From Thalassococcus profundi (GTDB lineage: Bacteria; Pseudomonadota; Alphaproteobacteria; Rhodobacterales; Rhodobacteraceae), in assembly GCF_003344785.1 (NCBI RefSeq), contig NZ_QPMK01000009.1:1-35353 (forward strand): a stretch of 35,353 bases of DNA, read 5' to 3'. Shown in pieces: positions 3,215 to 20,715 of the stretch (position 1 is its first letter; every line of letters begins with the position of its first letter). Below the pieces are notes generated by a model. It was given only the letters and a program-made list of their open reading frames with translations. It was not told where the DNA came from and did not search any database. A program made the position numbers and the translations under genes.

Positions 3215-3235
3215 CTCTGTCTTCGTATGGCTGGA

Positions 3236-4005: not shown

Positions 4006-4029
4006 ACGGGCGTGCCGCTCGAATCAAGC

Positions 4030-4365: not shown

Positions 4366-4414
4366 TGGGCGTTCCGTAATCCGTTTGACCGCCTAGCTAG
4401 AACAGTGCGCGGGA

Positions 4415-4804: not shown

Positions 4805-7804
4805 TTACGACTTGTCCTTGAGCCCCATCAGAGCTGCGGCAAAGGGATTGTCCGGGTCGATCGGCTTTTCCTTGCGCGGCGGACGCGCCTCGAAATTCTT
4901 CGGCCCCGGCTTGCCGCCGTCCTTGCCGCGCGGCTTGCCCTTGCCCTTCGGACCGCCCGCGGATTTCCCGCGCGGCTTGCCGTCCTGGGTCTGACCCCTA
5001 CCCTGTCCTGGTCCTTGGCCTTGCCGGCGTCCACCGCCGCCTTCGCGGCGCGGGCCGCGATTGCCGCCCCGGTTGCCACCCCAGGTGAAGGTGTAGAAGC
5101 TTTCCATCTCGGGCGCTTCGATTTCGGCATCGGGGGCCGTGCCGGGGGGAACGTCTTCGGCAGACACGTCCGCGACCGGATCCTCGGGCGCGGGTTCCGC
5201 CGGCTCCTCCGAGATCGGCGCTTCGCCCGCATCGGGGATCGCGGTGACCTCTTCGGGTGCTTCCGGGGCTGCGTCGTCGACCTCGGGCGGCGCCACGACG
5301 GCTCCGGCCTCGGCGCTCTGTCCCTCGTCGAAAACCGGCGTGTCGGCATTCTCCTCGGCGGGGGTCTCTTCGACCGGACGCGCGACCTCGGCCTCGGCGT
5401 CTTTGGGCACGACCGCATCGACGGGCTTGACCTTGATCCGCTCGCCGGCCTCGGCCTTGTAGCCCAGCCCCTGCATCAGGTCCGCGAACTGTTCCAGCGT
5501 CAGGCCCGTGATCGACAGCATGTCGGCCTTGGCCTCGAACCCGCCGCGGCTGTCCTCGGCACGCAGGAGATCCGCCAGTCGCTCCAGCATGTCGATCCGG
5601 ATGGCGCGCTGCCCGGACTTGCGGTAGCCCGCGATCAAGTAGTGTTCAGCCGGGATGCCGTCGATATTCGGCACGGTCACCAGCCCCGGCGGCGGCGCTT
5701 CGGGGAAATGGTCGAGCCCGCGCGCGAGGCTCCAGAGCACCAGACGCAGCCGCGTCGGCGCGGGTTTCAGCAGCAGCGGCATGAAGATCGTGTATTGTCC
5801 GAAGCGGATACCGTGCTTGCGCAGGCTCGACCGGGCGTCCTGGTCCAGCGCCTTGACCTCGTCGGCCACCTCGGCGCGCGACAGGATGCCCATCGCCTCG
5901 ACCATTCGGAAGCCGAAACCGCGGGCGAGACCCGTCAACGTCTCGTCGTGCTGGATGTTCAAGAGCGGCTCGAACAGCGCGGCGATCTTGCGGTCGATGA
6001 AATGCTGCAACCGGCGCTGCACCTTCTGCGCCACGTCCGGCCCTGCCTCGTCGTCGACAAAGGCCTTGACCCGCGGCTTCAGCGCATCGTCCCCGGCCTC
6101 GAGCTTGCCAACCGCTTCGGTGCCCCACATCAGGCCACCCTGTTCGGTAAAGTCGATCTCGGTATCGGGCGCATTGTAGAACCGGTCGGCGCGCAGATGG
6201 AAATGCGGCGCCAGCGCCTGGATCGACGCGGTCTTGAGCGTCTTGGCCTCCTGTCCGGACGCCTCCTTGTCCTGGCGGAACCGGAACCCTTCGAGCTTAC
6301 CGACGAATTCGCCTTCGACGGTCACCTCACCCTTGTCATTCACTTCGGCCAAAAGGGCCTCCTTCTGCTTCAACCGGCGAAGCAGCACGCTGGTCCGCCG
6401 GTCTACAAATCTTTGCGTCAGACGGTCGTGCAGCGCATCCGACAGCCTGTCTTCTACAGCGCGCGCACGGTCGCGCCAATGGCTTTCGTCATTCACCCAT
6501 TCCCGGCGTTGCGCCACGTAGGTCCATGTGCGGATAAACGCCAACCGCCGCGACAGGGTGTCGATGTCCCCCTCGGTCCGGTCGATCCGGTTGATCTGTC
6601 GTGCCAGGAAATCGTCGGGGATCACCCCCCTCTGGTGCAAATGACCAAAGATAACGTCCAGCAGGCCCGCATGTTCCGCATGGCTGATGCCGCGGAAATC
6701 GGGGATGCGGCAGACGTCCCACAAGAGCTTGACCGACGCCGGGTCGGACGCCCGTGCGGCCACCTCGGCCTGGGCGCTCAGCGCCTTCAGCGCCTGCAGG
6801 TCATCCGCCTCGCGCGCCTTGACGAGCCGGTCGTCCTTCGGCGACTCCTCGAGCGAGGCGATCAGCGTGTCGATGCTGCCGAAGCGCAGGTCGGCGTTGC
6901 GCCAGTTGAGCTTGCGCAGCGGGGTGAAGCGGTGGTTGCAGATCGCCTCGGCCCACTCATCGGGGATCGGCCCCGCCTCGCCCGTCACGCCAAAGGTGCC
7001 GTGGCTCATGCCGCGCCCGGCCCGGCCCGCGATCTGCGCCAGTTCGTTCGGTTGCAGCGGCCGCATCCGCCGCCCGTCGAATTTCGTCAGCGCCGAAAAG
7101 GCGACGTGGTTGATGTCGAGGTTGAGCCCCATTCCGATGGCATCGGTCGCGACAAGGTAATCCACGTCGCCGTTCTGGTAGAGGTCCACCTGCGCGTTGC
7201 GGGTCCGCGGGCTGAGCGCGCCCATCACCACCGCCGCCCCGCCCTTCTGACGGCGCAAAAGCTCGGCGATGGCATAGACGTTCTCGACCGAGAAGCCGAC
7301 GATGGCGGTGCGCGCCTGCAAGCGGCTGATCTTCTTCGAGCCGGTATAGCCCAGTTGGCTCATCCGCTCGCGACGCACGAACTCCACCCCCGGCACCAGT
7401 TCGGCAATCGGCCCGCGCATGGTGTCAGAGCCGAGGAACAGCGTCTCGTGCTGGCCGCGCATCCGGAGCAGCCGGTCGGTGAAGACATGGCCGCGCTCGG
7501 GATCGGCGCAAAGCTGGATTTCGTCAACGGCGACGAAGTCGGTGCCCATGCCCTCGGGCATCGCCTCGACCGTGCAGATCCAGTAGGTCGCGCGCGGCGG
7601 CACGATGCGTTCCTCGCCGGTGACAAGCGCCACCACGCCCGGGCCACGGGCCATGACGACCTTGTCATAAACCTCGCGCGCCAGAAGCCGCAAAGGCAGG
7701 CCGATCATGCCGGTGCGGTAGCCGAGCATCCGGTCGATCGCGTAATGGGTCTTGCCGGTATTGGTCGGGCCGAGAACGGCCGCGATCCGCGCGCGTGTGG
7801 ACAT
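4805..7804 (-). CDS. SUV3-like ATP-dependent RNA helicase with disordered RG-rich tail
   Basis: A 999-residue superfamily 2 helicase. Walker A GPTNTGKT is at residues 12-19, the Walker B box is DEIQ (94-97), and motif VI is QIAGRAGRG. This set (DEIQ and GRAGR) is that of mitochondrial SUV3, whose partner is a 3'-5' exoribonuclease; the bacterial protein presumably acts on structured RNA. From about residue 780 the sequence turns into an acidic, Pro/Ala/Glu-rich linker, then a Gly/Arg/Lys-rich tail with GGNRGGNRG and GRGQTQDGKPRGK, suited to RNA or protein contacts. The ATG at 7804 is preferred over the GTG one codon earlier; AGGGG lies 5 nt upstream of that GTG. It follows the TPR gene by 21 bp. 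Confidence 0.92.
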   Translation of the reverse strand: MSTRARIAAVLGPTNTGKTHYAIDRMLGYRTGMIGLPLRLLAREVYDKVVMARGPGVVALVTGEERIVPPRATYWICTVEAMPEGMGTDFVAVDEIQLCADPERGHVFTDRLLRMRGQHETLFLGSDTMRGPIAELVPGVEFVRRERMSQLGYTGSKKISRLQARTAIVGFSVENVYAIAELLRRQKGGAAVVMGALSPRTRNAQVDLYQNGDVDYLVATDAIGMGLNLDINHVAFSALTKFDGRRMRPLQPNELAQIAGRAGRGMSHGTFGVTGEAGPIPDEWAEAICNHRFTPLRKLNWRNADLRFGSIDTLIASLEESPKDDRLVKAREADDLQALKALSAQAEVAARASDPASVKLLWDVCRIPDFRGISHAEHAGLLDVIFGHLHQRGVIPDDFLARQINRIDRTEGDIDTLSRRLAFIRTWTYVAQRREWVNDESHWRDRARAVEDRLSDALHDRLTQRFVDRRTSVLLRRLKQKEALLAEVNDKGEVTVEGEFVGKLEGFRFRQDKEASGQEAKTLKTASIQALAPHFHLRADRFYNAPDTEIDFTEQGGLMWGTEAVGKLEAGDDALKPRVKAFVDDEAGPDVAQKVQRRLQHFIDRKIAALFEPLLNIQHDETLTGLARGFGFRMVEAMGILSRAEVADEVKALDQDARSSLRKHGIRFGQYTIFMPLLLKPAPTRLRLVLWSLARGLDHFPEAPPPGLVTVPNIDGIPAEHYLIAGYRKSGQRAIRIDMLERLADLLRAEDSRGGFEAKADMLSITGLTLEQFADLMQGLGYKAEAGERIKVKPVDAVVPKDAEAEVARPVEETPAEENADTPVFDEGQSAEAGAVVAPPEVDDAAPEAPEEVTAIPDAGEAPISEEPAEPAPEDPVADVSAEDVPPGTAPDAEIEAPEMESFYTFTWGGNRGGNRGPRREGGGGRRQGQGPGQGRGQTQDGKPRGKSAGGPKGKGKPRGKDGGKPGPKNFEARPPRKEKPIDPDNPFAAALMGLKDKS

Positions 7805-7825
7805 CACCGCCCCTTGCTGGCCCTG

Positions 7826-8413
7826 TCAGAGAGCCGTGCCGTCGATTTGCGCGGCGAGGCGCTGCATCGCCTCGGTCACTTCGGGATCATGCGGCCGCAG
7901 TTCCAGAACCCGTTCATAGACCTGGTGCGCCAGCGCCGGGCGCTCGGTCTGTTCGAAAATCGCGCCGAGGCCGCGCAGCGCGCCGAAATGCGCGGGGTTG
8001 AGCGCCAGCACATGCTCCAACGCATCCGCCGCAGGGCCGTACAGGTCTTCTGCGTAATACGCACGGGCAAGGCCCTGCCAGCCCTCGGCAAACTCCGGCG
8101 CGTGATCGGTCAGCGCGGTGAAATGCTCGATCGCGGCGTGGGTGTCGGAAACCTCCAGCGCATCGCGCCCGCGCTTCAGCAGAAAGTCCATCGCGGCAGA
8201 GCCGGACTTGGACCACTCCAGTTGCAATTCCCGTTCCAGCCGCGCGGCCTCGGCCTCGTCCGCGTCGCGCAGCTGCATCAGCAGCTCCGCCGCACGGTCC
8301 GACTCTGCCGGCTCCCCGACCTGCTGCGCGGAGAGGTCCTGCGGCAGAAGTAGGGAAATCGTGACTAGAACGGCAAATGCCGTGACGGTAGATTTGAATT
8401 TCATCGCACCCAT
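7826..8413 (-). CDS. Exported tetratricopeptide-repeat protein
   Basis: About 195 residues. An N-terminal signal peptide (MKFKS, a hydrophobic stretch, then LSAQQ) is followed by a helical region and at least three TPR units (for example AAIEHFTALTDHAPEFAEGW, then AADALEHVLALNPAHFGAL, then ALAHQVYERVLELRPHDPEV). It is expected in the periplasm as a protein-interaction module; no catalytic motif is seen. Starts at 8419, 8413 and 8404 are all in frame. The AGAGG site fits 8413 best, while the signal peptide itself begins at the 8404 methionine. It is divergent from the SCP2 gene and runs towards the helicase, whose start is 21 bp downstream. Confidence 0.82.
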   Translation of the reverse strand: MGAMKFKSTVTAFAVLVTISLLLPQDLSAQQVGEPAESDRAAELLMQLRDADEAEAARLERELQLEWSKSGSAAMDFLLKRGRDALEVSDTHAAIEHFTALTDHAPEFAEGWQGLARAYYAEDLYGPAADALEHVLALNPAHFGALRGLGAIFEQTERPALAHQVYERVLELRPHDPEVTEAMQRLAAQIDGTAL

Positions 8414-8512
8414 GCTCATAACACCTCTGAGTGTAGCGTCTGTGCTGGGAATTGCCAGCATCCGAAAAGGCAAAACACACGACACGCAGATGACAATCCA
8501 GGGAGACCCCGC

Positions 8513-8803
8513 ATGAGCGATTACGTGACCGAAGCCGTCAAGGCGATGAACGAAAAGATGGACGGCCAGGGCTTTGACGGTACGGCGAAATTCGAGATCG
8601 CCGGCGAAGGCAGCTTCATCGTCGACCAGAACGGCGCGCATGCCGGCGACGAGGATGCCGAGGTGACGCTTTCCGCCGATGCGGAGACCTTCAAGTCGAT
8701 TCTCGACGGCGACCTCGACCCGACCTCGGCCTTCATGTCCGGCAAGCTTGCCATCGACGGCGACATGGGCAAGGCGATGCAGCTGGCGCAGGTGCTGAAC
8801 TGA
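8513..8803 (+). CDS. SCP2 sterol-binding domain protein
   Basis: A 96-residue single-domain protein of the SCP2 family. The typical C-terminal part is visible: DAEVTLSADAETFKSILDG then a FMSGKLAIDGDMGKAMQLA helix. The fold makes a hydrophobic tunnel that binds lipids or acyl-CoA in known members. A GGGAGA ribosome site precedes ATG 8513. The TGA overlaps the next gene's ATG (TGATG), so this is translationally coupled to the lysophospholipase-like hydrolase, suggesting a joint lipid-handling job. Confidence 0.9.
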   Translation: MSDYVTEAVKAMNEKMDGQGFDGTAKFEIAGEGSFIVDQNGAHAGDEDAEVTLSADAETFKSILDGDLDPTSAFMSGKLAIDGDMGKAMQLAQVLN

Positions 8804-9765
8804 TGGATCTGGCGCCCGCCCCCTTCCACGCCGACCTGGCCGAAGGTCCGGCGGGCGCCCGTGCACACTGGGTGCACACCTCGGACGGCCTGCGCATCCG
8901 GCTGGGCCATTTCCCGGCGGAAGAGCCGCGCGGAACGGTGCTGCTGTTCCCGGGCCGCACGGAGTATATCGAGAAATACGGTCGCACCGCGTCGGACCTG
9001 GCGGCGGGCGGCTATGACACGCTCTGCATCGACTGGCGCGGCCAGGGGCTGGCCGACCGCCTGCTCGAGGACGTGCGCACCGGGCACGTGCATGTGTTCG
9101 AGGATTACCAGCGCGATGTCGCCGCCATGGTCGACACCGCACGTGCGCTGGACCTGCCGCGCCCCTGGCACCTCATTGCGCATTCCATGGGCGGCTGCAT
9201 CGGCCTGCGCGCCGCGATGGACGGGCTGCCTGTGGCCTCCTGCGCCTTTACCGGCCCGATGTGGGGCATCCGCATCTCGGGCGCAATGCGCCCCGCCGCC
9301 TGGGCGCTGAGCTGGGGGCTGGGACATCTGGGGCTCGGCCATATGGTCGCGCCGGGCACCAAGTCCGAAAGCTACGTGCTGGCGCAGCCCTTCGATGACA
9401 ACCAGCTGACCACCGATGCCGAGATGTTCGACTACATGCGCCGCCAGGTGCAGGCCGAGCCGGGCTTCGGCCTGGGCGGCCCGTCGCTGCGCTGGCTGCA
9501 CCAGGCGCTGGCCGAATGCCGCGACCTCGCGCGGCGGCCCTCGCCGACCCTGCCCTGCATCGCCTTCTGCGGCACCAACGAACGCATTGTCGACCTGGCC
9601 CGCATCCAGGATCGCATGGCGCGCTGGCCCGGCGGCCGGCTCGAGATGGTGGCGGGCGCGGAACACGAGGTGTTGATGGAATCCGCCGCCCTGCGCCGCA
9701 AGGTGACCGACGCGATCCTCGACCTCTTCGACGGCGCAGGGCATCCTGCGGCAAGATCGGCCTGA
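8803..9765 (+). CDS. Alpha/beta hydrolase, lysophospholipase (PldB-like)
   Basis: A 320-residue serine hydrolase of the Hydrolase_4/PldB type. The oxyanion strand is LLFPGRTEYIEKYGR (about 47-61), the nucleophile elbow is AHSMGG with S128, a later NERIVD supplies a likely acid residue, and AEHEVLME the catalytic histidine. PldB proteins cleave acyl chains from lysophospholipids or monoacylglycerols; the substrate here is unproven. No signal peptide is seen. It starts inside the stop of the SCP2 gene by a 1-bp overlap. Confidence 0.88.
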   Translation: MDLAPAPFHADLAEGPAGARAHWVHTSDGLRIRLGHFPAEEPRGTVLLFPGRTEYIEKYGRTASDLAAGGYDTLCIDWRGQGLADRLLEDVRTGHVHVFEDYQRDVAAMVDTARALDLPRPWHLIAHSMGGCIGLRAAMDGLPVASCAFTGPMWGIRISGAMRPAAWALSWGLGHLGLGHMVAPGTKSESYVLAQPFDDNQLTTDAEMFDYMRRQVQAEPGFGLGGPSLRWLHQALAECRDLARRPSPTLPCIAFCGTNERIVDLARIQDRMARWPGGRLEMVAGAEHEVLMESAALRRKVTDAILDLFDGAGHPAARSA

Positions 9766-9781
9766 CCCCCGGCGCCTTGGC

Positions 9782-9802
9782 CCACCGGACACCACCGGAC
9801 AC
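9782..9802. repeat. Tandem 10-bp duplication
   Basis: CCACCGGACA occurs twice head-to-tail (9782-9791 and 9792-9801) in the 91-bp gap between the hydrolase and the exonuclease gene. It may be a simple replication-slippage duplication. Confidence 0.6.
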
Positions 9803-9856
9803 CGAATTCCGCGCGCGCCCCCTGTCCGACGCCGCCTGCGGGCCTATTCTTGGCTT

Positions 9857-10867
9857 ATGCGCGATCCGGTCCTCACCTTCACCGACCGGGGCATCTACTG
9901 CCCCGCAGGCGACTTCTTCATCGACCCCTGGCGTCCCGTCGACCGGGCGTTGATCACCCATGGCCATGCCGATCACGCGCGGTCCGGCCATGCCCGTTAC
10001 CTCGCCACCCATGCCGCCGGTCCGGTGATGCGCCACCGGCTGGGCGAGATCGTGATCGAGGGCGCCGATTACGGCGAAACGCTGCGGCTGGGCGACGCGA
10101 TCGTGTCGTTCCATCCCGCCGGCCACATCCCCGGATCGGCGCAGATCCGGGTCGAGGTGGGCGGCGAGGTCTGGGTTGTCTCTGGCGATTACAAGCTGCT
10201 GGACGACGGCCTGTCCGAACCGTTCGAGCCGGTCCGCTGCCACACCTTCATCAGCGAATGCACCTTCGGCCTGCCGGTCTTCAAGTGGACCGCGCAGGAA
10301 GTGGTGGCCCGAGACCTCAACGACTGGTGGCGCGGCTGCGTGGCTGAAGGACGTACCGCGATCCTCGGCGCCTATTCGCTGGGCAAGGCGCAAAGGCTGA
10401 TGCGAATGCTGGATGCGGAGATCGGCCCGATCCTGACCCATGGTGCCGTGGAGGGCACAAACCGGGTACTGCGCGACCAGGGGCTTTCCCTGCCCGACAC
10501 CGTGCCCGTGACGCCCGAAACGAAGATCAAGGATCACCCCGGCGCGCTGGTGCTGGCACCGCCCGCGGCCCTTGGCTCGGCCTGGGCGCGGCGCTTCGGC
10601 CCCGCCTCGACCGGCTTTGCCTCGGGCTGGATGCGGCTGCGCGGCGTGCGGCGGCGGCGCGCGGCGGACCGCGGATTTGTCATCTCGGACCATGCGGACT
10701 GGCCGGGCCTCCTGCAGGCGATCACTGATACCGGCGCGGAAAATGTCTATGTCACGCATGGTTACACGGACATCTTCGCCCGCTGGCTGAACGACCGGGG
10801 CTGGAACGCGAAAGTTCTGCCAACCGAATTCGGCGGTGACGAGGACGAGGCAGAGGCCGCCGCATGA
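9857..10867 (+). CDS. Ligase-associated DNA exonuclease (metallo-beta-lactamase/beta-CASP fold)
   Basis: A 336-residue enzyme with the metal-binding motif HGHADH at residues 35-40, a second histidine in FHPAGHIPGSAQI and an aspartate in VSGDYK. The beta-CASP-like middle is followed by FVISDHADWPGLL and YVTHGYT near the end. This matches the family annotated as ligase-associated DNA exonuclease, related to CPSF/Artemis nucleases. It overlaps the ATP-dependent ligase gene by ATGA, so the two are made together and probably process and seal DNA ends. The usual further partners, a large helicase and a metallophosphoesterase, are not in this window. Confidence 0.9.
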   Translation: MRDPVLTFTDRGIYCPAGDFFIDPWRPVDRALITHGHADHARSGHARYLATHAAGPVMRHRLGEIVIEGADYGETLRLGDAIVSFHPAGHIPGSAQIRVEVGGEVWVVSGDYKLLDDGLSEPFEPVRCHTFISECTFGLPVFKWTAQEVVARDLNDWWRGCVAEGRTAILGAYSLGKAQRLMRMLDAEIGPILTHGAVEGTNRVLRDQGLSLPDTVPVTPETKIKDHPGALVLAPPAALGSAWARRFGPASTGFASGWMRLRGVRRRRAADRGFVISDHADWPGLLQAITDTGAENVYVTHGYTDIFARWLNDRGWNAKVLPTEFGGDEDEAEAAA

Positions 10868-12456
10868 AGGACTTTGCCCAGCTCATCACCACCATCGACC
10901 AGACCACGAAAACCAGCCTGAAAACAAAGGCTTTGGCCGAATATTTCACCCGCGCGCCGGACGACGACAAGCTCTGGACCATCGCGCTGTTCTCGGGCCG
11001 CCGCCCGAAACGTGCAGTCAACACCACGCAGTTGCGCGAATGGGCGGCGGAGCGCGCGGGCCTGCCCCTGTGGCTGCTCGAGGAAAGCTATCCCATCGTC
11101 GGCGACCTGGCCGAGACCATCGCGCTGATCCTGCCCAAAGCGGAGGGGTCCTCTGACCGCTCTTTGACCCATTGGATCAACTTCTTGCGCGCCCTGTCTC
11201 AGGCGCCGCAGGAAGACCGCAAGCCGCAGATCCTTGCCGCCTGGGACGAGTTGGACGACACCGAGCGGTTTCTCTTCAACAAGCTCATCACCGGCGGCTG
11301 GCGCATCGGGGTGAGCCAGAAGCTGATGACCCGCGCGCTCGCGGAGGCCACCGGGCAGGACGAGGCGAGCCTCGCGCACCGGCTGATGGGCGGCTGGACG
11401 CCGGACGACGTGAGCTATCACAACCTGATCGAGGCCGAGGACAAGGCCGCCGACCTCAGCCGGCCCTATCCCTTCTACCTGGCCTACCAGCTGGCCGACG
11501 GACCCGACCCGCTGGGCGATCCGGGCGACTGGCAGGCGGAGTGGAAATGGGACGGCATCCGCGGCCAGCTGATCCTGCGCATGGGCGAACACCACGTCTG
11601 GTCGCGCGGCGAGGAACTGATGACCGACCGATTCCCCGAACTGGCCCGGGCGCGGGATTTCCTGCCCGACGGCACGGTTCTGGATGGCGAGATCGTCGCC
11701 TGGGACGGCACCCAGCCGCTGCCCTTCAACACGCTGCAAAAGCGCATCGGGCGCAAGACCGTGCCGAAGAAGCTGCTGACCGAGGCGCCGGTGATCCTGC
11801 TGGCCTACGACCTGCTGGAAGCCGACGGCAAGGATCTGCGCGACACGCCCCTGCGCGACCGGCGCGCCGCCCTGAAAAAGCTGATCGACCCCCTGCCCGC
11901 CGACGCCCCGCTGCGCGTCTCCGAAGCCATCGACTTTGCCGACTGGGAGGCGTTGGCGCAGACCCGCGCCACCGCCCGCGACCGGCGCGCAGAAGGGCTG
12001 ATGCTGAAGCGTCTCGACAGCCCTTACCTTGCGGGCCGCAAGAAGGGCGACTGGTGGAAATGGAAGCTAGACCCGCTGACCATCGACGCGGTGATGATCT
12101 ATGCCCAGCAGGGTCACGGGCGGCGCGCCAACCTCTTTACCGACTTCACCTTCGCGGTCTGGGACGGCGATGCGCTGGTGCCCTTCACCAAGGCCTACTC
12201 GGGCCTGACGGACGCGGAATTCGGCAAGATCACCGCATGGGTGCGGAAGAACACCCAACAACGCTTTGGCCCCGTGCGGCAGGTCACGCCGCACCACGTC
12301 TTCGAAATCGCCTTCGAAGGCATCCAGGAAAGCCCGCGCCACAAGTCCGGCGTCGCCCTGCGCTTTCCTCGCATGAGCCGCTGGCGCCACGACAAGCCGC
12401 TGGCCGAGGCCAACACGCTGGACGATCTCAAGGCGATCCTGTCGGCCTACGGCTGA
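10864..12456 (+). CDS. ATP-dependent DNA ligase (exonuclease-linked bacterial type)
   Basis: A 530-residue ligase. The N-terminal third is the helical DNA-binding domain of LigI/LigB-type enzymes. The adenylation domain carries motif I EWKWDGIRG with the AMP-accepting lysine K228, motif III VLDGEIVAWD, motif IV EGLMLKR and motif V WWKWKLDPLTID. A C-terminal OB domain ends with ESPRHKSGVALRFPRMSRWR. It seals nicks using ATP, an accessory activity beside the housekeeping NAD-dependent LigA expected elsewhere. The start codon lies within the 3' end of the exonuclease (4-bp overlap). Confidence 0.93.
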   Translation: MKDFAQLITTIDQTTKTSLKTKALAEYFTRAPDDDKLWTIALFSGRRPKRAVNTTQLREWAAERAGLPLWLLEESYPIVGDLAETIALILPKAEGSSDRSLTHWINFLRALSQAPQEDRKPQILAAWDELDDTERFLFNKLITGGWRIGVSQKLMTRALAEATGQDEASLAHRLMGGWTPDDVSYHNLIEAEDKAADLSRPYPFYLAYQLADGPDPLGDPGDWQAEWKWDGIRGQLILRMGEHHVWSRGEELMTDRFPELARARDFLPDGTVLDGEIVAWDGTQPLPFNTLQKRIGRKTVPKKLLTEAPVILLAYDLLEADGKDLRDTPLRDRRAALKKLIDPLPADAPLRVSEAIDFADWEALAQTRATARDRRAEGLMLKRLDSPYLAGRKKGDWWKWKLDPLTIDAVMIYAQQGHGRRANLFTDFTFAVWDGDALVPFTKAYSGLTDAEFGKITAWVRKNTQQRFGPVRQVTPHHVFEIAFEGIQESPRHKSGVALRFPRMSRWRHDKPLAEANTLDDLKAILSAYG

Positions 12457-12537
12457 TCCGGGCCGCCTGCGCGCACAAACCGCATGACCCTGCCCGTCCG
12501 ATCCGCTATCACGGGCCCGCAACCGGCGGAGCGCTCC

Positions 12538-14346
12538 ATGACCCAAGACCTCGCGGCCTTCCTCGCCTCGGTCCATCCCTACAACGCCATCGACGCCGCG
12601 GCGCTGGACAATTTCCTGCCTGCCTTCCGCACCCGGTCCTACGCCGCAGGCGCCGCGATCTACGACTTCGGTGAACCGCTCGAAGGGCTCTACCTGATCC
12701 GTTCGGGCGCGGTCGAGATCACCGACGAGGCGGGAAACACCGTGTCGCTTCTGTCGGCGCGCAATTCCTTCGGGGAACGCGGGCTGACCCGCGACGGCCT
12801 TGCCGCGACCACCGCGCGGGCGACCGAGGACACCGACCTGCTGGTGCTGCCCAAGGCCGATTTCCTGCGGCTCATCGAAACCCAGCCGCCCGCCGCACGG
12901 TTCTTCGACCGCTCCCGGCCCGCACGCCCCGCCCGGGCAGAGCTTGCCACCAGCCGCATCGACACGCTGATGACCCGCGACCCGCTGACCTGCGGTCCCG
13001 ATGCAACGGTGCAAGAGGCCGCGCAGGCCATGCGCGCCGCCCGCGTGTCTTCGATCTGCGTGACCGAGGGCGCGCGGCTGACCGGCATCATCACCCTGCG
13101 CGACCTCGGCAACAAGGTGGTGGCGGAAGGCCGCGACGCGGGCACGCGGGTCAGCGCGGTGATGACGCCCGACCCGATGACCCTGCCGCCCGGCGCCGTG
13201 GGGTCCGACGTGCTGCACCAGATGATGGAGCACCGCATCGGCCATGTCCCCGTGACCGAGGGCGGCACGCTTCTAGGCATCGTCACACAGACCGACCTCA
13301 CGCGGTTCCAGGCGCTGTCCTCGGGGCACCTGATCCGCGACATCGCCGGCGCCGAGGATGTGGACGGGATGGCCGCCGCCACCGCGCGCATCCCGGCACT
13401 GCTGGTGCAACTGGCCGCCGCGGCGACGCGGCACGAGATCACCACGCGGCTCATCACCGACATCGCCGACGCGGTCACGCGCCGTCTGCTGAAGCTGGCC
13501 GAAGAGACGCTGGGCGCGCCGCCGGTGCCCTACCTCTGGGCCGCCTGCGGTAGCCAGGGGCGGCAGGACCAGACCGGCGTGTCCGACCAGGACAACTGCC
13601 TGATCCTGAGCGACGAAGCGACGGACGCACATATGGGCTATTTCGCCGACCTCGCCCGCTTTGTCAGCGACGGGCTAAATGCCTGCGGCTACGTCTACTG
13701 CCCCGGCGACATGATGGCCACGAACCCGCGCTGGTGCCAGCCGCTGCGGGTCTGGCGCGGCTATTTCGACGGCTGGATCCGCACCCCCAGCCCCGAGGCG
13801 CAGATGCTGGCCTCGGTCATGTTCGACCTGCGGCCCATCGGCGGCACCCGGGCGCTGTTCGACGCGCTGCAAAGCGGCACGCTGGAAAAGGCGTCGAAGA
13901 ACTCGATCTTCGTCAATCACATGATCAACAATTCGCTGACCCACACGCCGCCGCTGGGGCTCCTGCGCGGCTTTGCCACGATCCGGTCGGGCGAGCATCG
14001 CAACACCGTGGACCTCAAGCACAACGGCGTCGTGCCGGTGACGGACCTTGCCCGCATCTACGCGCTGCGCGGGCAACTGCGCCCGGTCAACACCCGCGCC
14101 CGGATCGAGGCCGCGCGCGCCGCCGGTCTGGTCAGCGCAAGCGGCGGGCAGGACCTGCTCGATGCCTATGACGTCATCGCCGAGACGCGGCTGCAGCACC
14201 AGGCCGCGCGGATCAAGGCGGGCGAGGCGCCGGATAATTTCCTTGCACCGAGCACGCTTTCGGATTTTGAAAGAGCGCACCTGCGCAACGCGTTCGTGGT
14301 GGTGAAATCGCTGCAATCGGCGCTGGGACACGCGCGGCGGACCTGA
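12538..14346 (+). CDS. cNMP-binding / CBS pair / DUF294 nucleotidyltransferase-like protein
   Basis: A 602-residue cytosolic protein in four parts: a cyclic-nucleotide-binding jelly roll (about 10-115, with FGERGLT), two CBS repeats (about 145-260), a GlnD-like DUF294 nucleotidyltransferase domain and the DUF294_C domain. The transferase signature is intact: GSQGR at 338-342 and DQD at 350-352, the expected metal-binding acidic pair. The ATG at 12538 is chosen over the one at 12484 because CGGAG lies 7 nt upstream and the cNMP domain begins here. Relatives commonly neighbour DUF4212/sodium symporters and a DnaQ-like exonuclease. The transferred group and target are unknown to me; nucleotide-responsive control of carboxylate uptake is an inference. 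Confidence 0.9.
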   Translation: MTQDLAAFLASVHPYNAIDAAALDNFLPAFRTRSYAAGAAIYDFGEPLEGLYLIRSGAVEITDEAGNTVSLLSARNSFGERGLTRDGLAATTARATEDTDLLVLPKADFLRLIETQPPAARFFDRSRPARPARAELATSRIDTLMTRDPLTCGPDATVQEAAQAMRAARVSSICVTEGARLTGIITLRDLGNKVVAEGRDAGTRVSAVMTPDPMTLPPGAVGSDVLHQMMEHRIGHVPVTEGGTLLGIVTQTDLTRFQALSSGHLIRDIAGAEDVDGMAAATARIPALLVQLAAAATRHEITTRLITDIADAVTRRLLKLAEETLGAPPVPYLWAACGSQGRQDQTGVSDQDNCLILSDEATDAHMGYFADLARFVSDGLNACGYVYCPGDMMATNPRWCQPLRVWRGYFDGWIRTPSPEAQMLASVMFDLRPIGGTRALFDALQSGTLEKASKNSIFVNHMINNSLTHTPPLGLLRGFATIRSGEHRNTVDLKHNGVVPVTDLARIYALRGQLRPVNTRARIEAARAAGLVSASGGQDLLDAYDVIAETRLQHQAARIKAGEAPDNFLAPSTLSDFERAHLRNAFVVVKSLQSALGHARRT

Positions 14347-14372: not shown

Positions 14373-14870
14373 ATGTTTCTGGAACTGATCGCCGTGGCGG
14401 TCGCGGGGTTTGCCGGGGCCGGTGCGATCATGGCGCTGCGGCTGGTGCTGGGCGACCGGCTGCCGCGGTGGCTGGTCCCGGTTGGCGCGGGCCTCGCCAT
14501 GCTGGCCGCCACCATCAGCAGCGAATACAACTGGTTCTCGCGCACCGCCGGTGCCCTTCCCGAGGGCGTGGTGGTGGCCGACAGCGTGACCGATACCGCG
14601 CCCTGGCGGCCCTGGACCTACCTCGTGCCGCTCACCGACCGCTTTGTCGCCGTGGACACCGGAAACCTGGTGCAGAACGAGGAACAGGGGCTCTACATGG
14701 CCGACCTTTACTTCTTCGGGCGATGGAAACCGGTGCAGTCGGTGCAGATGATGATCGACTGCGCCGATGGCCGGCGGGCCGATCCGGCGCTGGGCGACGG
14801 CTCGGATCCGGTCTGGCGCGATGTCGGCAGCGAAGATCCGATCGTGCGCACCGTCTGTTCCGGAGGATAG
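14373..14870 (+). CDS. Unrecognised two-helix membrane protein
   Basis: A 165-residue protein I do not recognise. Residues 4-25 and about 33-49 are hydrophobic and probably span the membrane; the remaining 115 residues are soluble, with TAPWRPWTYLVPL, a YFFGRWKPVQ segment and two cysteines (DCADG and TVCSGG). The ATG at 14373 follows a good GGAGGAG ribosome site, 26 bp after the DUF294 gene. The sensor-like exonuclease begins 4 bp after its stop, so it lies within a three-gene operon and may be a membrane partner of either neighbour. The two cysteines may be paired if the domain is periplasmic, but the topology is uncertain. Confidence 0.75.
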   Translation: MFLELIAVAVAGFAGAGAIMALRLVLGDRLPRWLVPVGAGLAMLAATISSEYNWFSRTAGALPEGVVVADSVTDTAPWRPWTYLVPLTDRFVAVDTGNLVQNEEQGLYMADLYFFGRWKPVQSVQMMIDCADGRRADPALGDGSDPVWRDVGSEDPIVRTVCSGG

Positions 14871-14874: not shown

Positions 14875-16290
14875 ATGCCCCGCCTTTCGGTCCGCCAACG
14901 CGTGTTCCTGACCTTCGCGGGGCTGGCCGTGGCCGCGCTGGCGATGCTGGCGCTGGCACTCTGGGGCGGGCAGAACCGCGCGGCCACGGGCGCCAACGGC
15001 TATCTCTTCGCCTTCATCCTCGGCGGCTTCGGCCTTGTGGGCATGATCGCCGGGGTGTGGCTGATGTTCGATGAGACCATCGCCAAACCCGTGGACCGCA
15101 TCGCCGCGGACCTGCGCAGCCGCACCCATGCGGGTCTGTCGCATCCGATCGACCCCGCCACCGCAAGGCACCTTGGCGACCTCGGCCCCGCCGCCGACGC
15201 CATGACCCGGGCGCTGAGCGCCAGCACCGTGGACGCTGCGCAAAGGGTCGCGTCCGAGACCGCGCGACTCAGCGCCGAGGCGAAACGGCTGACCGCCCTC
15301 CTGACGGAAATCCCGGTGGCCACGATCCTGTGCAGCGCCGACGACCGGATCGTTCTCTACGACGGACAGGCGGCGCAGGTGCTGGCGCAGATCGCCGTGC
15401 CGCGGCTGGGGGCGCGGCTGGGCGCCTATTTCGATGCCCGCGCGATACAGGCGGCGCGCGGCAAGCTGGCGCGCAGCGGCAAGGACGTGAGTTTTGCCGC
15501 CTCGGGCATCGACGGCGCGCAAAGCTTCGAGATGCAGATGAAGCACATGGACGGCGGTGGCTACCTGCTGATCATCGACGCGGCGACGGTGCGGCTGGCG
15601 CCCGAGGGCAACCGCCCGCTGACCTTCGATTTCGACCTGCTGGACCGCGCCCCCGCCCTGGCTCTGGCCGAGACGCCGCTGCGCGCCTTGTGTTTCGCGG
15701 TCTTCGATACCGAGACCACGGGGCTTCTGCCGCACAAGGACGAGATCGTGCAGATCGCCGCGCGCCGCATCTTCGGCGGTCGGCTGGTCGAGGGCGAGGT
15801 GCTGGACATGCTGGTCGATCCCGGGCGGCCGATTCCCCCGGCGGCGACCAAGGTGCACGGGATCAGCGATTTCATGGTGGCGGGCAAACCGGACCCGGAC
15901 GCGGCGGCGCGCGCCTTTCACCATTTCTGCGAGGATGCGGTCATCGTCGCGCATAACGCGCCGTTCGACATGGCCTTCCTGCGCCGCCGGTCAGCGCAGA
16001 ACGGGCTGACCTGGGATCATCCGATCCTCGACACGGTGCTGCTGTCGGCGGTGCTTTTCGGGGCGGCGGCACCGCATACCCTGGACGCGATCTGCGAGCG
16101 GCTCGACGTGACGATCCCCGCCCGCGCGCGCCACACCGCGCTTGGCGATGCCGAGGCCACGGCGCGGGTGCTGCTGCGGATGCTGCCGATGCTCGAGGCG
16201 CGCGGGCTCGACACCTTCGGCAAGGTGATCCGCGAGACGACCCAGCACGGGCGTCTCTTGCAGGACCTCAACGCCGCGCCGCAGGCCTGA
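14875..16290 (+). CDS. Membrane-anchored PAS-linked DEDDh 3'-5' exonuclease (DnaQ-like)
   Basis: A 471-residue protein. Two transmembrane helices (about 12-32 and 43-66) lead into a helical, HAMP-like linker (KPVDRIAADLR...), then a PAS-like domain (about 142-240, beginning LLTEIPVATILCSADDRIVLYDG). The C-terminal part is an intact DnaQ-type exonuclease: DTETTG at 278-283, HNxxxD at 360-365, H420 and D425, so all DEDDh residues are present. The input half looks like that of a sensor kinase with an exonuclease in place of the kinase. GGAGG precedes ATG 14875; the open frame upstream overlaps the previous gene and is not used. It is the last gene of its row before a terminator. The substrate (DNA, RNA or a short oligonucleotide signal) is not readable from the sequence. 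Confidence 0.88.
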   Translation: MPRLSVRQRVFLTFAGLAVAALAMLALALWGGQNRAATGANGYLFAFILGGFGLVGMIAGVWLMFDETIAKPVDRIAADLRSRTHAGLSHPIDPATARHLGDLGPAADAMTRALSASTVDAAQRVASETARLSAEAKRLTALLTEIPVATILCSADDRIVLYDGQAAQVLAQIAVPRLGARLGAYFDARAIQAARGKLARSGKDVSFAASGIDGAQSFEMQMKHMDGGGYLLIIDAATVRLAPEGNRPLTFDFDLLDRAPALALAETPLRALCFAVFDTETTGLLPHKDEIVQIAARRIFGGRLVEGEVLDMLVDPGRPIPPAATKVHGISDFMVAGKPDPDAAARAFHHFCEDAVIVAHNAPFDMAFLRRRSAQNGLTWDHPILDTVLLSAVLFGAAAPHTLDAICERLDVTIPARARHTALGDAEATARVLLRMLPMLEARGLDTFGKVIRETTQHGRLLQDLNAAPQA

Positions 16291-16449: not shown

Positions 16450-19254
16450 TCAGCGACCGATCGACCACCAGCCGCGCTTCTTCGGCTTGGCGTCACCCTC
16501 GTCGCTGCCGGCCTCTGCGGGTTCCAGCGGCTTGTCCTCTGCCGCAGCCGGCTCCGGCGTCGGCGTGGGCTCCGGCATCGGCGCGGGCTCCGGCATCGGC
16601 GCGGGCTCGGGCGCTTCTTCGCTCACCACGTTGAGCTCTTCCTCGACCGGCGGCGCCACCGGGGCGGCGGTGCCTTCGTCGGGCTGCTCGATGGCCTCGG
16701 GTTCGGCCAGCGCGCCCTGGTCGAGCGCCGCATCCACCGGCGCGGGCGCCTCCTCTGCGGGCTGCGGCTCTTCAGCGACCGGTTCGGGCGCCGGGGCCTT
16801 CTTGCGGCTGCGCGAGCGCTTGGGCTTGGGCGCCTCCGCGGCCACGGCCTCCTCGGCGGCGGGGGCGGCCTCCTCGGCGGGGGCCTCCTCGGCCAGTGCG
16901 GCCTCCTCGGTCTTCTTCGACCGGGACCGCGAGCGGCTGCGCTTGGGCTTCGGCGCGTCCTCGGCAGGCGTTTCCCCCGCGACGGTTTCGGACTGGGCGG
17001 CCTCGGACTGCCCGGAGTCGGCCTCGGCGGTTTCCGGCTGTGCCTCGCTCTCCTGCTCCGCACCGGAGTCCTGCGTGTTCCCGTTCTCGCCGTTGTCCCC
17101 GTTATCCGAGGATTTGCTGCGGCTGCGGCGGCGGCGGCGGCGTCGCTTCTTCGGCTTGCCGTCTTCCTGGCCGTTCTCGCCGGTGTCGGACGGGCTCTGC
17201 GCCTTGTCTTTCTGGGCATTCGCGGCGGCGGCTTCGGCCGCCTCTTCGGCGGCGGCCTCGGCTTCGTCATCGTCCCAGGCCGATCCCTGGTCCTCGTCCA
17301 CCTGATCCATCAGCGAGGTGTCGACCGACACCACCTGGCCGATGGCCTCGGGCACGGAGCGGGTCGCGGTCTTGAATTTCTCCATGGAGAAATCCGGGCT
17401 GACCAGATGCGCGTCGCCTTCGATCCGCACCGCCATGCCGTAGCGCAGCTCGATCTGGGCGATGTGTTCGCGTTTCTGGTTCATCAGGTAGTTGGCGATG
17501 CCCACCGGGCATTTCACCAGCACCTCGCGCGAGCGTTTGCGCACGCCTTCCTCTTCGATCTGGCGCAGCACCTGCAGGGCGAGGTTGTCGTCGGACCGGA
17601 TGAGGCCGGTGCCATGGCAGGACGGGCACGGCGCCGTCGTCGCCTCGATCATGCCGGGGCGCAGGCGCTGACGGCTCATTTCGAGCAGGCCGAACCCGCT
17701 GATCCGCCCCACCTGGATGCGGGCGCGGTCGGTCTTGAGCTTGTCCTTGAGCTTCTTCTCCACGGCGGCGTTGTTCTTGCGCTCGTCCATGTCGATGAAG
17801 TCGATCACGATCAGGCCCGCAAGGTCGCGCAGGCGCAGCTGACGCGCCACTTCCTCGGCGGCCTCGAGGTTGGTCTTGGTCGCCGTTTCCTCGATCGAGC
17901 CTTCCTTGGTGGCACGCCCGGAGTTCACGTCGATGGCGACCAGCGCCTCGGTCACGCCGATGACGATGTAGCCGCCGGATTTCAGCTGCACCGTCGGGTT
18001 GAACATCGAGCTGAGGTACGATTCGACCTGGTAGCGCGCGAAAAGCGGCATGGCGTCGGCGTAATGCTTCACGTTCTTGGCGTGGGACGGCATGATCATC
18101 TTCATGAAGTCCTTGGCGATGCGGTAACCGCGCTCGCCCTCCACGAAGACCTCGTCGATCTCGCGATTGTAGAGGTCGCGGATCGAGCGTTTGATCAGGT
18201 CGCCCTCTTCGTAGATCTTTGCGGGCGCGATGGATTTCAGCGTCAGCTCGCGGATCTGCTCCCACAGGCGCTGCAGGTATTCGTAATCGCGCTTGATCTC
18301 GGTCTTGGTGCGCTTGGCGCCGGCGGTGCGGATGATCAGACCCGCGCCCTTCGGCACGTCGATCTCGCTCGCGGTGGCCTTGAGCTTGGAGCGGTCGGCG
18401 GCGTTGGTGATCTTGCGGCTGATGCCGCCGCCGCGGGCGGTGTTGGGCATCAGGACGCAGTAGCGCCCGGCAAGGCTCAGGTAGGTGGTGAGCGCCGCCC
18501 CCTTGTTGCCGCGCTCTTCCTTGACGACCTGTACCAGCAGGATCTGCCGGACCTTGATGACTTCCTGGATCTTGTAGCGGCGGGCACGCGGCTTGCGGAC
18601 CGGGCGCAGGTCTTCCTCGGTGTCGTCGTCGGCGACGCTTTCGATGTCGCTGTCCTTGTCGGACGCGCTCGGGGCGTCGTCGTCCTCGGCATCGTCGCCG
18701 TCGTCGGACTGGTCGTCGGCGGGCTCTTCCACCGGCGTTTCGGCCACGGTCTCCATCGGCGACAGGCCTTCGGCATCCTCGGATGCCTCGGTCTCCGAGA
18801 TCTCGTCCTCGCCAAGGTCGATGGTTTCCATCCCGGCGATGTCCTGCGTCGCGGTTTCGTCCTGCGACGTCGACTTTTCGGCCTTGGTGGCACTGCGCGA
18901 CCGCGAGCGGCTGCGCGGGGAGCGCTTGGGCTTCTCGTCCTCGTCCTCGCGGCGCTGCGCGTCGGCCAGCGCCTGCTCTTCCTCCATCAGCGCCTGACGG
19001 TCGGCGATGGGGATCTGGTAGTAATCCGGATGAATTTCGGAGAACGCCAGGAACCCATGGCGGTTGCCGCCGTAATCGACGAAGGCCGCCTGTAGCGACG
19101 GTTCGACCCGGGTTACCTTTGCGAGATAGATGTTGCCAGCAAGCTGGCGTTTGTTCTCGGATTCAAAATCGAATTCCTCGACCTTGTTTCCGTCCACCAC
19201 CACGACGCGGGTTTCCTCCGCGTGGGTGGCGTCGATAAGCATTTTCTTAGCCAT
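16450..19254 (-). CDS. rne: Ribonuclease E
   Basis: A 934-residue endoribonuclease, the core of the RNA degradosome. The S1 domain (about 35-90 plus the region after 215) is interrupted by a long acidic, low-complexity insertion, as in alphaproteobacterial enzymes. Catalytic aspartates align to D442 (AIDVNSGRAT) and D485 (VIDFIDM); the zinc link is CPSCHGTG at 543-550. The C-terminal third is disordered, with basic clusters (KKRRRRRRRSRSKS, KRSRSRSRSKK, KRSRSRKK) and Pro/Glu-rich repeats (PEPAPMPEPAPMPEP), the expected scaffold for RNA, helicase or exonuclease partners. The start at 19254 (MAKKMLIDATHAEE) agrees with relatives; an in-frame ATG seven codons earlier is possible. The long leader upstream allows feedback by its own cleavage, as known for E. 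coli rne. Confidence 0.95.
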   Translation of the reverse strand: MAKKMLIDATHAEETRVVVVDGNKVEEFDFESENKRQLAGNIYLAKVTRVEPSLQAAFVDYGGNRHGFLAFSEIHPDYYQIPIADRQALMEEEQALADAQRREDEDEKPKRSPRSRSRSRSATKAEKSTSQDETATQDIAGMETIDLGEDEISETEASEDAEGLSPMETVAETPVEEPADDQSDDGDDAEDDDAPSASDKDSDIESVADDDTEEDLRPVRKPRARRYKIQEVIKVRQILLVQVVKEERGNKGAALTTYLSLAGRYCVLMPNTARGGGISRKITNAADRSKLKATASEIDVPKGAGLIIRTAGAKRTKTEIKRDYEYLQRLWEQIRELTLKSIAPAKIYEEGDLIKRSIRDLYNREIDEVFVEGERGYRIAKDFMKMIMPSHAKNVKHYADAMPLFARYQVESYLSSMFNPTVQLKSGGYIVIGVTEALVAIDVNSGRATKEGSIEETATKTNLEAAEEVARQLRLRDLAGLIVIDFIDMDERKNNAAVEKKLKDKLKTDRARIQVGRISGFGLLEMSRQRLRPGMIEATTAPCPSCHGTGLIRSDDNLALQVLRQIEEEGVRKRSREVLVKCPVGIANYLMNQKREHIAQIELRYGMAVRIEGDAHLVSPDFSMEKFKTATRSVPEAIGQVVSVDTSLMDQVDEDQGSAWDDDEAEAAAEEAAEAAAANAQKDKAQSPSDTGENGQEDGKPKKRRRRRRRSRSKSSDNGDNGENGNTQDSGAEQESEAQPETAEADSGQSEAAQSETVAGETPAEDAPKPKRSRSRSRSKKTEEAALAEEAPAEEAAPAAEEAVAAEAPKPKRSRSRKKAPAPEPVAEEPQPAEEAPAPVDAALDQGALAEPEAIEQPDEGTAAPVAPPVEEELNVVSEEAPEPAPMPEPAPMPEPTPTPEPAAAEDKPLEPAEAGSDEGDAKPKKRGWWSIGR

Positions 19255-19804
19255 ATGATCCAATTGCACACCCATATGGCGCCCGGCCCCCGTGAGGGCA
19301 GCGCATGCGGGTGGTGTCTTGTCTGAGCGAGGGGATGCGCGCAGACGGGCACGGACCTTGACGGGTCTGCCATGTGCCTCACTGTCGTCGCGCGCTTCAT
19401 CGCGGTTCTTCTCCGACGCATGTCGCGGGGTGTGAGCCCGGCTGCGCCCATTATAAGCCCGTCGCTGTCGCGTCCGGGCGGACTTGCTGGCCCTGGGGCC
19501 TGATCGGTCTGTCCAGAGATCGGGGCTGTGCCCTGAAACCGTCTGTCCAGCGAAACTCTCGTGTGGCGCCTCCGTTCGGGACGGAGCGCAGCCTGACAGA
19601 CAGCATAATGCCAGCGGATGCGAAATGACAATGGGCAATCGACGACAACCTGACGCCAATGCGCGACAGGTCGGGGATGCGGGCGGACACCGGCTGCGTG
19701 GCGCCGATTCCTCAGATTGGACATGCGGTTCTACCAGAATGGACAACTCGCGCGTTGCCGCTGCCGCGGCAGGGTTTCTAATCGGCCAACGGAGGAGACC
19801 AGAC
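19255..19804. other. 550-bp divergent control region between rne and the dehydrogenase row
   Basis: I see no protein gene supported here; open frames on both strands lack family resemblance. The stretch holds the candidate rne -10 box, two exact copies of GTCTGTCCAG (19507-19516 and 19541-19550, 34 bp apart), an inverted GACAGAC (19595-19601) and a CATAAT (19604-19609) that might be a plus-strand -10. A strong GGAGGAG ribosome site at 19791-19797 serves the short leader ORF at 19805. Confidence 0.55.
19450..19455 (-). promoter_or_regulatory. Candidate -10 element for rne
   Basis: The minus strand reads a consensus TATAAT here, rare in this GC-rich DNA, 195 bp upstream of the rne start. No good -35 box is seen at 16-18 bp. 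If used, it gives a leader of about 190 nt. Confidence 0.4.
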
Positions 19805-19849
19805 ATGCGACATTCACCTTGCGACGATTCCCGGCGGGCGGTGCGCTGA
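19805..19849 (+). CDS. Possible 14-codon leader ORF, coupled to the dehydrogenase
   Basis: ATG 19805 lies 7 nt after the best ribosome site in the region (GGAGGAG, 19791-19797) and reads MRHSPCDDSRRAVR before TGA at 19847-19849. That stop overlaps the dehydrogenase ATG (TGATG), whereas the dehydrogenase itself has only a weak GGCGG site. The arrangement implies ribosomes load at the leader and reinitiate. It has four arginines, two coded by adjacent CGG. Alternatively the dehydrogenase starts further upstream in its own frame, but its family N-terminus begins exactly at 19849. Confidence 0.5.
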   Translation: MRHSPCDDSRRAVR

Positions 19850-20715
19850 TGCGGGTGGGGTTTGTTGGGCTGGGACGGATGGGCGCGCACATGGCGCGCA
19901 ACCTCGCCGGCGCCGGGCACGAATTGACGCTGTGGAACCGGTCCGCGCACAAGGCCCATGCCCTCGGCGTTGAGATTGGCTGCGCCGTTGCCGCGACGCC
20001 GCGGGCCCTGTCGGACAGTGCCGACGTGGTGGTCACGATGCTGGCCGACGATCCGTCCTCCGAGGCGGTGCACGGCGGGACCGACGGGCTTTTCGCCGGG
20101 GCCGCGCGTCTCTTCGTCGAGATGGGCACCATGAGCCCCGGCCACATCGCCCGGCTGGTGGCCGACGCCCCAACCGGTGCGCGGGTGATCGACGCGCCGG
20201 TCTCGGGGGCCACGCAGGCCGCCGCCGATGCGCAACTGCTGATCATGGCGGGCTGCACGCCCGAGGAGGCGACACCCCTCGCCCCGCTTTTCGATGCCCT
20301 TGGCCGCAAGACGCTGTGTCTCGGGTCCGCGGGCAGCGGCGCGGTTATGAAGCTGGCGGTCAATTCCCTGATCCACGGGCTTAACCAGACCCTGGCCGAG
20401 GCGATGAGCCTCGCGCAGGCCGCGGGCATCGCCCCCGACGCCGCCTTTGACGTGATCGAAGCCAGCGCCGCCGCCGCCCCGATGCTGAGCTACCGCCGGC
20501 CGCTTTATCTGGACGAGGCCGCGCACGAGGTGACCTTCACCGTGGCGCTGGCGCGCAAGGACATGGAGGTGACGGCGGAGCTGGCAGAGGCTCTGGGCAC
20601 CGCGATGCCGCAAGGGCTCATCACGCTCGACACCCTCAGACAGGCCGAGGCGCAGGGATACGGCGCCCGCGACATGGCCGCGATCCTGACCTACATGCGA
20701 AAGGAGATCTCATGA
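19849..20715 (+). CDS. 3-hydroxyisobutyrate dehydrogenase-family oxidoreductase
   Basis: A 288-residue beta-hydroxyacid dehydrogenase. The Rossmann motif GLGRMG is at 7-12, the substrate loop DAPVSGA replaces the usual DAPVSGG, and the catalytic lysine is K168 with N172 in MKLAVNSL. The enzymes oxidise 3-hydroxyisobutyrate, tartronate semialdehyde or related acids with NAD(P). The substrate is not determined by the sequence; the ThuA-like partner gene, overlapping by 4 bp, suggests carbohydrate-derived acids rather than valine breakdown. Confidence 0.88.
   Translation: MRVGFVGLGRMGAHMARNLAGAGHELTLWNRSAHKAHALGVEIGCAVAATPRALSDSADVVVTMLADDPSSEAVHGGTDGLFAGAARLFVEMGTMSPGHIARLVADAPTGARVIDAPVSGATQAAADAQLLIMAGCTPEEATPLAPLFDALGRKTLCLGSAGSGAVMKLAVNSLIHGLNQTLAEAMSLAQAAGIAPDAAFDVIEASAAAAPMLSYRRPLYLDEAAHEVTFTVALARKDMEVTAELAEALGTAMPQGLITLDTLRQAEAQGYGARDMAAILTYMRKEIS

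Follow-up and report, generated by a model that had tools for sequence, protein, structure and literature searches.

The gene at 14875–16290 raises the question of why a protein that begins like a membrane-bound sensor kinase should end in an exonuclease. To our knowledge, the bacterial membrane sensors described so far carry kinases, cyclases, diesterases or methyl-accepting tails at their output end. The earlier note on this DNA had called two membrane helices, a HAMP-like linker, a PAS-like fold and a catalytically complete DnaQ-type exonuclease in a single chain, and had proposed sensory control of the nuclease. The features of the window (the whole stretch of 35,353 nucleotides that was analysed) on which the question turns are as follows.

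1311–3095, + strand: VC_2705-family sodium/solute symporter (TIGR03648), identified with NCBIfam and found beside DUF294 in relatives
12484–14346, + strand: protein of 620 aa with cNMP-binding, CBS-CBS, DUF294 nucleotidyltransferase and DUF294_C domains, identified with Pfam
14373–14870, + strand: small conserved protein of 165 aa with a hydrophobic N-terminus (one hydrophobic segment above threshold), present in 114 of the 123 loci compared below
14875–16290, + strand: sensor-exonuclease gene, 471 aa, with the layout TM-TM / HAMP-like / PAS / DEDDh, from the open reading frame, residues and model
14902–14958, + strand: first membrane helix, residues 10–28, from hydropathy (model helix 6–35)
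15013–15069, + strand: second membrane helix, residues 47–65, from hydropathy (model helix 41–86)
15070–15303, + strand: HAMP-like linker and signalling helix, residues 66–143, two helices in the model, with HAMP matches in only 2 of 70 members
15307–15582, + strand: PAS domain, residues 145–236, from the model, relatives and a PDB profile search
15691–16185, + strand: DEDDh exonuclease domain, residues 273–437, from RNase_T (1.7e-34), Foldseek (PolC, DinG, epsilon) and catalytic residues

The open reading frame begins with the ATG at 14875, and its stop codon ends at 16290. A GGAGG at 14862–14866 precedes this ATG, and the stop of the upstream gene lies 4 bases before it; an in-frame ATG also occurs earlier, at 14767, and the alignment of relatives begins at 14875 instead. 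The AlphaFold model of the protein, built with 38 sequences (mean pLDDT 88.6, pTM 0.84), shows a pair of long membrane helices followed by a helical stretch resembling HAMP, an alpha/beta domain of PAS type at residues 148–235 and, from residue 273, the exonuclease. The hydrophobic segments at residues 10–28 and 47–65 coincide with the long helices of the model, in agreement with the two membrane helices of the earlier note. Since relatives at E ≤ 1e-30 occur in 116 of the 246 sampled family genomes, 60 of these 116 (own genome included) with a near-full-length match, the architecture is not a chance feature.

In the PAS region, the model follows the strand–strand–helix–helix–three-strand order of a PAS fold. 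Pfam returned no PAS match for the window protein, even at E ≤ 1, and no HAMP match; among the 70 members, it matched PAS in 26, PAS_4 in 22 and HAMP in two (all at E ≤ 0.01, the best HAMP match at 8.3e-10). The Pfam gathering cut-off is passed in the corresponding region of three relatives, by PAS_4 in L036 and L038 and by both PAS and PAS_4 in L044, and the N-terminal half of the window protein matches these relatives with E values of 2e-41, 5e-25 and 3e-11, respectively. A profile of the PAS region (29 rows, window first) searched against the PDB retrieved the PAS domain of ThkA at 4.8e-6 and, weakly, that of WalK (0.003–0.005). The earlier note had staked its reading on a PAS-like fold at residues 140–240, and the model, the relatives and the PDB profiles all point to one there, Pfam being silent on the window protein itself.

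The exonuclease half is more readily assigned. D278, E280, D365, H420 and D425 are all present where the earlier note had placed them, the five catalytic columns show no variation across the 70 rows of the cross-phylum alignment A2 (the window protein and 69 of the 80 named loci described below), and RNase_T is the sole Pfam family above cut-off in the window protein (1.7e-34). Fold and residues place the protein among the DEDDh (DnaQ-like) enzymes and, judged by sequence, it is predicted to be catalytically complete, as had been claimed. Among the 25 NCBIfam matches listed, only the broad DnaQ-family model TIGR00573 reached its cut-off (95.3 against 71.5 bits); the higher-scoring PolC, PRK07883 and epsilon equivalog models did not reach theirs. 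PolC, DinG and epsilon are also the closest solved nucleases to the window model among the Foldseek matches listed. The best 50 rows of that search were all exonucleases or polymerase/helicase entries with an exonuclease domain, none of them informative on the PAS domain; PAS and kinase folds were compared with the long-form model and profile searches instead of the window model. The window protein thus shares its fold and five catalytic residues with the DnaQ/epsilon, PolC and DinG domains. In contrast to these, it has no polymerase or helicase domain, carries a membrane-sensor N-terminus and misses the specific epsilon and PolC cut-offs.

Two other identities were considered and rejected. 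The protein is not the replicative epsilon subunit, because the equivalog cut-offs are missed (TIGR01406, 99.4 against 222.7 bits; NF004316, 102.5 against 196) and another RNase_T protein of the same genome, on contig C1, outscores it. A phage or defence gene was rejected as well: in a scan of viral contigs with at least 80 loci, 79 of the matches listed fall inside residues 236–470 and one (L292) inside 204–369, so that none of them reaches the membrane and linker region. PADLOC gave only DEDDh and PDC-S48 matches, both to the exonuclease part.

Relatives were compared in two sets of loci. The 123-locus set comprises the window, 19 loci (among them three pseudo-exonuclease paralogues and four loci from other families of the class), 100 loci and three shorter loci, with the split G515 fragments left out. 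The 80 named loci were divided by title and similarity into 28 Rhodobacterales-like loci, one of which is titled Rhizobiales, and 52 others, here called distant. The profiles used for counting (DHp, CA, REC, SSF, DUF294, small protein and kinase) were built from these same loci.

Some relatives are short like the window protein, and others are long, about 700 aa, with some 245 extra residues between PAS and exonuclease. This insert is a histidine-kinase core (DHp-CA). The model of one long form (L219, labelled Zoogloea, 721 aa; pLDDT 83.8, pTM 0.50) has a two-helix hairpin at 268–341 and an alpha/beta sandwich at 348–485. Foldseek against the PDB returned WalK (2.1e-20 over 481 columns), the VicK-like 4i5s (2.9e-15), ThkA (3.6e-12) and DivL (5.2e-9), with LOV-histidine kinases among the best matches and exonucleases from rank 12. 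Whole-chain TM-scores of the kinase matches are low (0.14–0.22 by query length), as expected if the domain arrangement is poorly predicted (pTM 0.50), and this fold evidence therefore bears on domain content, not on arrangement. A DHp-CA profile searched against PDB sequences retrieved the histidine kinase 9m08 (9.6e-9) and DivL (3.5e-7); designed ankyrin proteins, which appeared in the same list from about 0.02 upward, were taken as chance. These matches of the longer relatives, in fold to WalK, the VicK-like kinase and DivL and in sequence to histidine kinases and DivL, bear out the earlier note in its view of the N-terminal half as the input part of a sensor kinase. WalK/VicK-type kinases (TM-HAMP-PAS-DHp-CA), the best structural matches of the long form, have this input half and domain order in common with the family. 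In contrast to them, the long relatives have lost the kinase residues, the window protein is without the entire kinase core, and an exonuclease is added at the C-terminus.

The kinase core of the long form looks catalytically dead from its residues. The position of the phospho-acceptor histidine holds Glu in 24, Asp in 12, another residue in seven and a gap in three of 46 rows, three of which are short forms; His is found in none of the 43 rows with a residue there, and Arg at +3 is kept in 38 of these 43. HATPase_c was matched by none of the 70 members and HisKA by two (Pfam), and by eye the N-box and glycine boxes are absent from the CA domain of the long form. Many beta/gamma rows carry a His four residues ahead of the Glu. 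We kept the Glu as the equivalent of the His because R+3, L+6, I/L+9 and R+10, which we take to correspond to kinase H-box positions, fit this register, and because HMMER places the Glu opposite the His of SHEL in 9m08. The window protein has neither DHp nor CA, and with them it is without the phospho-acceptor His and the ATPase of a sensor histidine kinase. DHp was recognised in 40 of the 52 distant named loci, and the long form is spread over records labelled as several phyla, many of them metagenome-assembled. Because the long form is so widespread, we regard the short form as presumably derived, the core and the receiver gene being absent from the window branch most simply by loss; the tree itself is silent on gain versus loss.

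Immediately upstream of many long forms is a stand-alone receiver gene; the window locus has none. The phospho-acceptor Asp is retained in the consensus of 84 such receivers, along with the acidic pair, the Thr and the Lys. Of the 123 loci, 41 have both DHp and receiver, three have DHp alone, one has the receiver alone and 78 have neither (Fisher p 7e-28, kinship ignored); nine of the 123 keep CA with DHp absent, eight of them without a receiver. The corresponding counts for the 80 named loci, kinship again ignored, are 38, 15, two and 25, the 15 including contig-edge cases (L213, L226, L245) whose upstream gene is out of view. Over both sets, 18 DHp-positive loci have no receiver within 1.2 kb. 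These counts use a DHp cut-off of 1e-2; at 1e-3, L098 and L100, in which the receiver is present, turn DHp-negative (39/3/3/78), and one named row or more shifts as well. A quick DUF294 tree of 114 rows implies at least six changes of the receiver and eight of DHp. In five supported independent pairs, the receiver goes the same way 3.3 times on average and the opposite way 0 times, which is not significant, and within CA-positive rows the test has three pairs only. The co-change of DHp and receiver on the tree is suggestive, resting on few events.

In 23 of the 52 distant named loci, a genuine histidine kinase is encoded on the same strand no more than 1.2 kb away, and all 23 have both receiver and DHp. 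Such a kinase is found on the same strand in one locus of the 123-locus set (L117), on the opposite strand in L106, and on the same strand in none of the 28 Rhodobacterales-like named loci. The eight kinases scanned from long-form loci all carry HisKA and HATPase_c, and ten beside the long form have 9–13 hydrophobic segments each, with 53–67% identity to L219 or L211 over about 610–640 N-terminal residues. The gene at L219:874-3888 and nine similar genes encode histidine kinases of about 890–930 aa with a conserved multi-helix N-terminus. Their hydrophobic segments, HisKA and HATPase_c liken these neighbours to the SLC5/STAC kinases CrbS, RpuS and CbrA, from which they differ in that SSF was found in only one of the eight scanned, weakly and below cut-off, and that L254 has GAF domains instead. 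Among the window proteins scanned, there is no SLC5/STAC-type kinase.

According to the available part of the source, DivL of Caulobacter binds DivK~P via its dead kinase core, and the substitution R553A weakens the binding (PMC4211667). The long relatives likewise combine a PAS-DHp-CA core without the acceptor His with a stand-alone receiver gene nearby; their Arg at +3 falls at the position of DivL R553, and DivL matches them in both fold and sequence. In contrast, DivL acts through CckA, with no nuclease described in that part of the source (PMC4211667), and the window protein lacks DHp, CA and a receiver partner and is not a DivL-like pseudokinase.

Genes in the family usually follow the order symporter, DUF294, small protein, receiver where there is one, and exonuclease. 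DUF294 is encoded no more than 3 kb from the exonuclease in 119 of the 123 loci and 33 of the 52 distant ones, in several distant loci in opposite orientation, and an SSF symporter within 6 kb in 112 of the 123 and 18 of the 52. In the window, the symporter lies about 9.4 kb from DUF294 (3095–12484), though the two are adjacent in relatives; between them lie genes for a TPR protein, a Suv3-like helicase, an alpha/beta hydrolase and a pair of TIGR04122 exonuclease and TIGR04120 ligase. The small protein at 14373–14870 matches no Pfam or NCBIfam family. The DUF294 protein has a GS...DxD motif at residue 356, which we assume to be that of a nucleotidyltransferase. The make-up of the operon suggests control of carboxylate use. 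An RNase E/G gene on the opposite strand (16450–20613) is convergent with the exonuclease gene.

Published phenotypes exist for counterparts in Pseudomonas, and are given here as far as the available parts of three papers describe them. In P. putida KT2440, the CBS protein PP_0354 and the RNase_T protein PP_0353 form an operon, and ErdR binds the PP_0354 promoter (PMC9927547). Growth on pyruvate is impaired by deletion of PP_0353 and not of PP_0354, plasmid copies restore the mutants, and neither deletion affects growth on 20 mM acetate or succinate; deletion of actP-I also impairs growth on pyruvate (PMC9927547). The authors describe the exact function of PP_0353 as unclear, with mRNA decay as a speculation (PMC9927547). 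In P. aeruginosa, PA3232–PA3235 are reported to be up about 16-fold on propionate and PA3233–PA3235 down two-fold after propionate addition, and a PA3234 mutant is normal on propionate (PMC9765439). A DUF294-type protein of P. fluorescens is predicted to nucleotidylate proteins, and its mutant is described as being without a phenotype (PMC5715377).

Both PP_0354/PP_0353 and PA3232–PA3235, which adjoins actP in P. aeruginosa, resemble the window in pairing a CBS/DUF294-type protein with an RNase_T exonuclease, and show carboxylate-linked expression or phenotype. The window locus has the pairing of the PP_0353 type, and the growth phenotype comes from P. putida alone. In contrast to the window, the DUF294 gene of a Pseudomonas genome is followed by a short exonuclease (L268) that is 28% identical to the window domain; the long sensor form with receiver and kinase (L241) sits apart from the pair of DUF294 and short exonuclease. 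The short enzyme would correspond to PP_0353, which is probably a sensorless, distant counterpart of the window exonuclease.

The best explanation, to which we assign a probability of roughly 0.6, is a membrane receptor built on a kinase chassis with a DEDDh exonuclease as its output, sensor-gated and directed at a carboxylate-linked nucleic-acid target. Starting from the sequence, the predicted fold, the intact catalytic residues, the neighbourhood and the co-distribution of receiver and DHp, we propose the following hypothetical scheme, in which nuclease activity, sensory control, receiver docking, substrate and physiological role would be connected: (i) the histidine-kinase output of a membrane receptor was replaced by a DEDDh 3'-5' exonuclease, presumably in this direction; (ii) the dead core of most distant relatives (PAS, His-less DHp and CA) would be a docking site for the neighbouring receiver, as DivL docks DivK~P; (iii) in the long form, a receiver docked on the dead core would add gating of the exonuclease; (iv) in the window branch, the membrane/HAMP/PAS input most likely switches or positions the exonuclease by itself; (v) the target would likely be RNA or another nucleic acid, whose turnover tunes the uptake and use of acetate, pyruvate and related carboxylates, a tuning in which two other operon products, the symporter and the DUF294 nucleotidyltransferase, would act alongside the exonuclease. 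With the kinase core and the receiver gene absent from the window branch, PAS is joined almost directly to the exonuclease, and step (ii) does not apply to the window protein, which lacks DHp, CA and receiver.

We also consider, tentatively and at somewhat less than even odds, a two-component pathway with nucleic-acid cleavage as its end point: the stand-alone receiver, phosphorylated by a transporter-like histidine kinase, would dock on the dead core and gate the attached exonuclease at the membrane, the window branch would have shortened this to a receptor whose PAS domain drives the enzyme directly, and the DUF294 protein may provide what the enzyme trims off. Such a pathway can be likened to the eukaryotic sensor-nucleases IRE1 and RNase L. 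It is unlikely that the N-terminal half is merely the membrane anchor of a housekeeping exonuclease for repair or RNA decay, with a vestigial PAS and no switching. The missing kinase core of the window form, the divergence of its PAS below Pfam detection and, among the matches listed, the proofreading-type and DinG exonucleases as nearest solved folds would all fit an anchor; however, 60 near-full-length matches in the family retain the N-terminal half, the PAS is confidently modelled and the gene stays in an operon with symporter and DUF294. The main warning against taking catalysis of the window protein for granted is a paralogue in three same-genus genomes (L039:4995-6299, L040:4283-5608, L048:4038-5393), in which S/E/R/R/Q replaces D/E/D/H/D and four of the five catalytic residues have been lost. 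It lies about 1 kb from an acetyl-CoA-synthetase-like gene (by Pfam in L039, by clustering in L040 and L048). Between L039 and L040, a dN of 0.274 against a dS of 1.038 indicates purifying selection on this dead nuclease, and an exonuclease domain can therefore be kept for a non-catalytic reason. The genomes of L039 and L040 gave no DUF294 match; that of L048 has one, together with an intact exonuclease copy (L032). That the window domain, too, mainly binds and reports a nucleic acid or nucleotide, with catalysis secondary, seems improbable to us in view of the five catalytic residues that are invariant throughout A2.

The close company of DUF294 and exonuclease could also mean that the former attaches nucleotides to a protein or an RNA end, from which the DEDDh enzyme removes them under sensory control. 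The pairing within 3 kb persists in distant loci, several with opposite orientation, and includes the short, 28% identical exonuclease of the Pseudomonas genome, and the GS...DxD motif is present. We know of no DEDDh enzyme that removes nucleotides from proteins. Growth of P. putida on pyruvate, moreover, is hit by deletion of the exonuclease only, not of DUF294, in the available account (PMC9927547), and we give such a cycle little credence. The earlier note had further suggested that the protein might degrade an oligonucleotide messenger, for which in particular we found no support. The DEDDh superfamily includes oligoribonuclease, which would allow a pGpG or nanoRNA hydrolase that ends cyclic-di-GMP signalling. 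Such a role is very unlikely: among the matches listed, PolC, PRK07883 and epsilon lead the NCBIfam models and PolC, DinG and epsilon the folds, and the genome encodes three proteins of the PF01612 exonuclease superfamily, one or more of which could perform this function. One of these, a 277-aa open frame, could, we assume, be NrnC. No GGDEF or EAL domain was found among the neighbour proteins scanned.

Titles and abstract openings, some from partial lists, yielded no sensor- or pseudokinase-linked exonuclease, and a word search in the available part of a 2005 signalling census met exonuclease solely in the reference list. If the reading as a sensor-gated exonuclease holds, nucleic-acid trimming would be added to the direct signalling outputs of membrane sensors, and the long form would stand beside DivL as another natural case of a dead kinase core that a receiver may read, here with a measurable enzyme attached. 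The family also suggests a cause that can be tested for the growth phenotype of PP_0353 on pyruvate. One Pseudomonas genome has both a long sensor-exonuclease (L263) and a separate pair of DUF294 and short exonuclease (L268), which suggests DEDDh partners of two kinds for DUF294.
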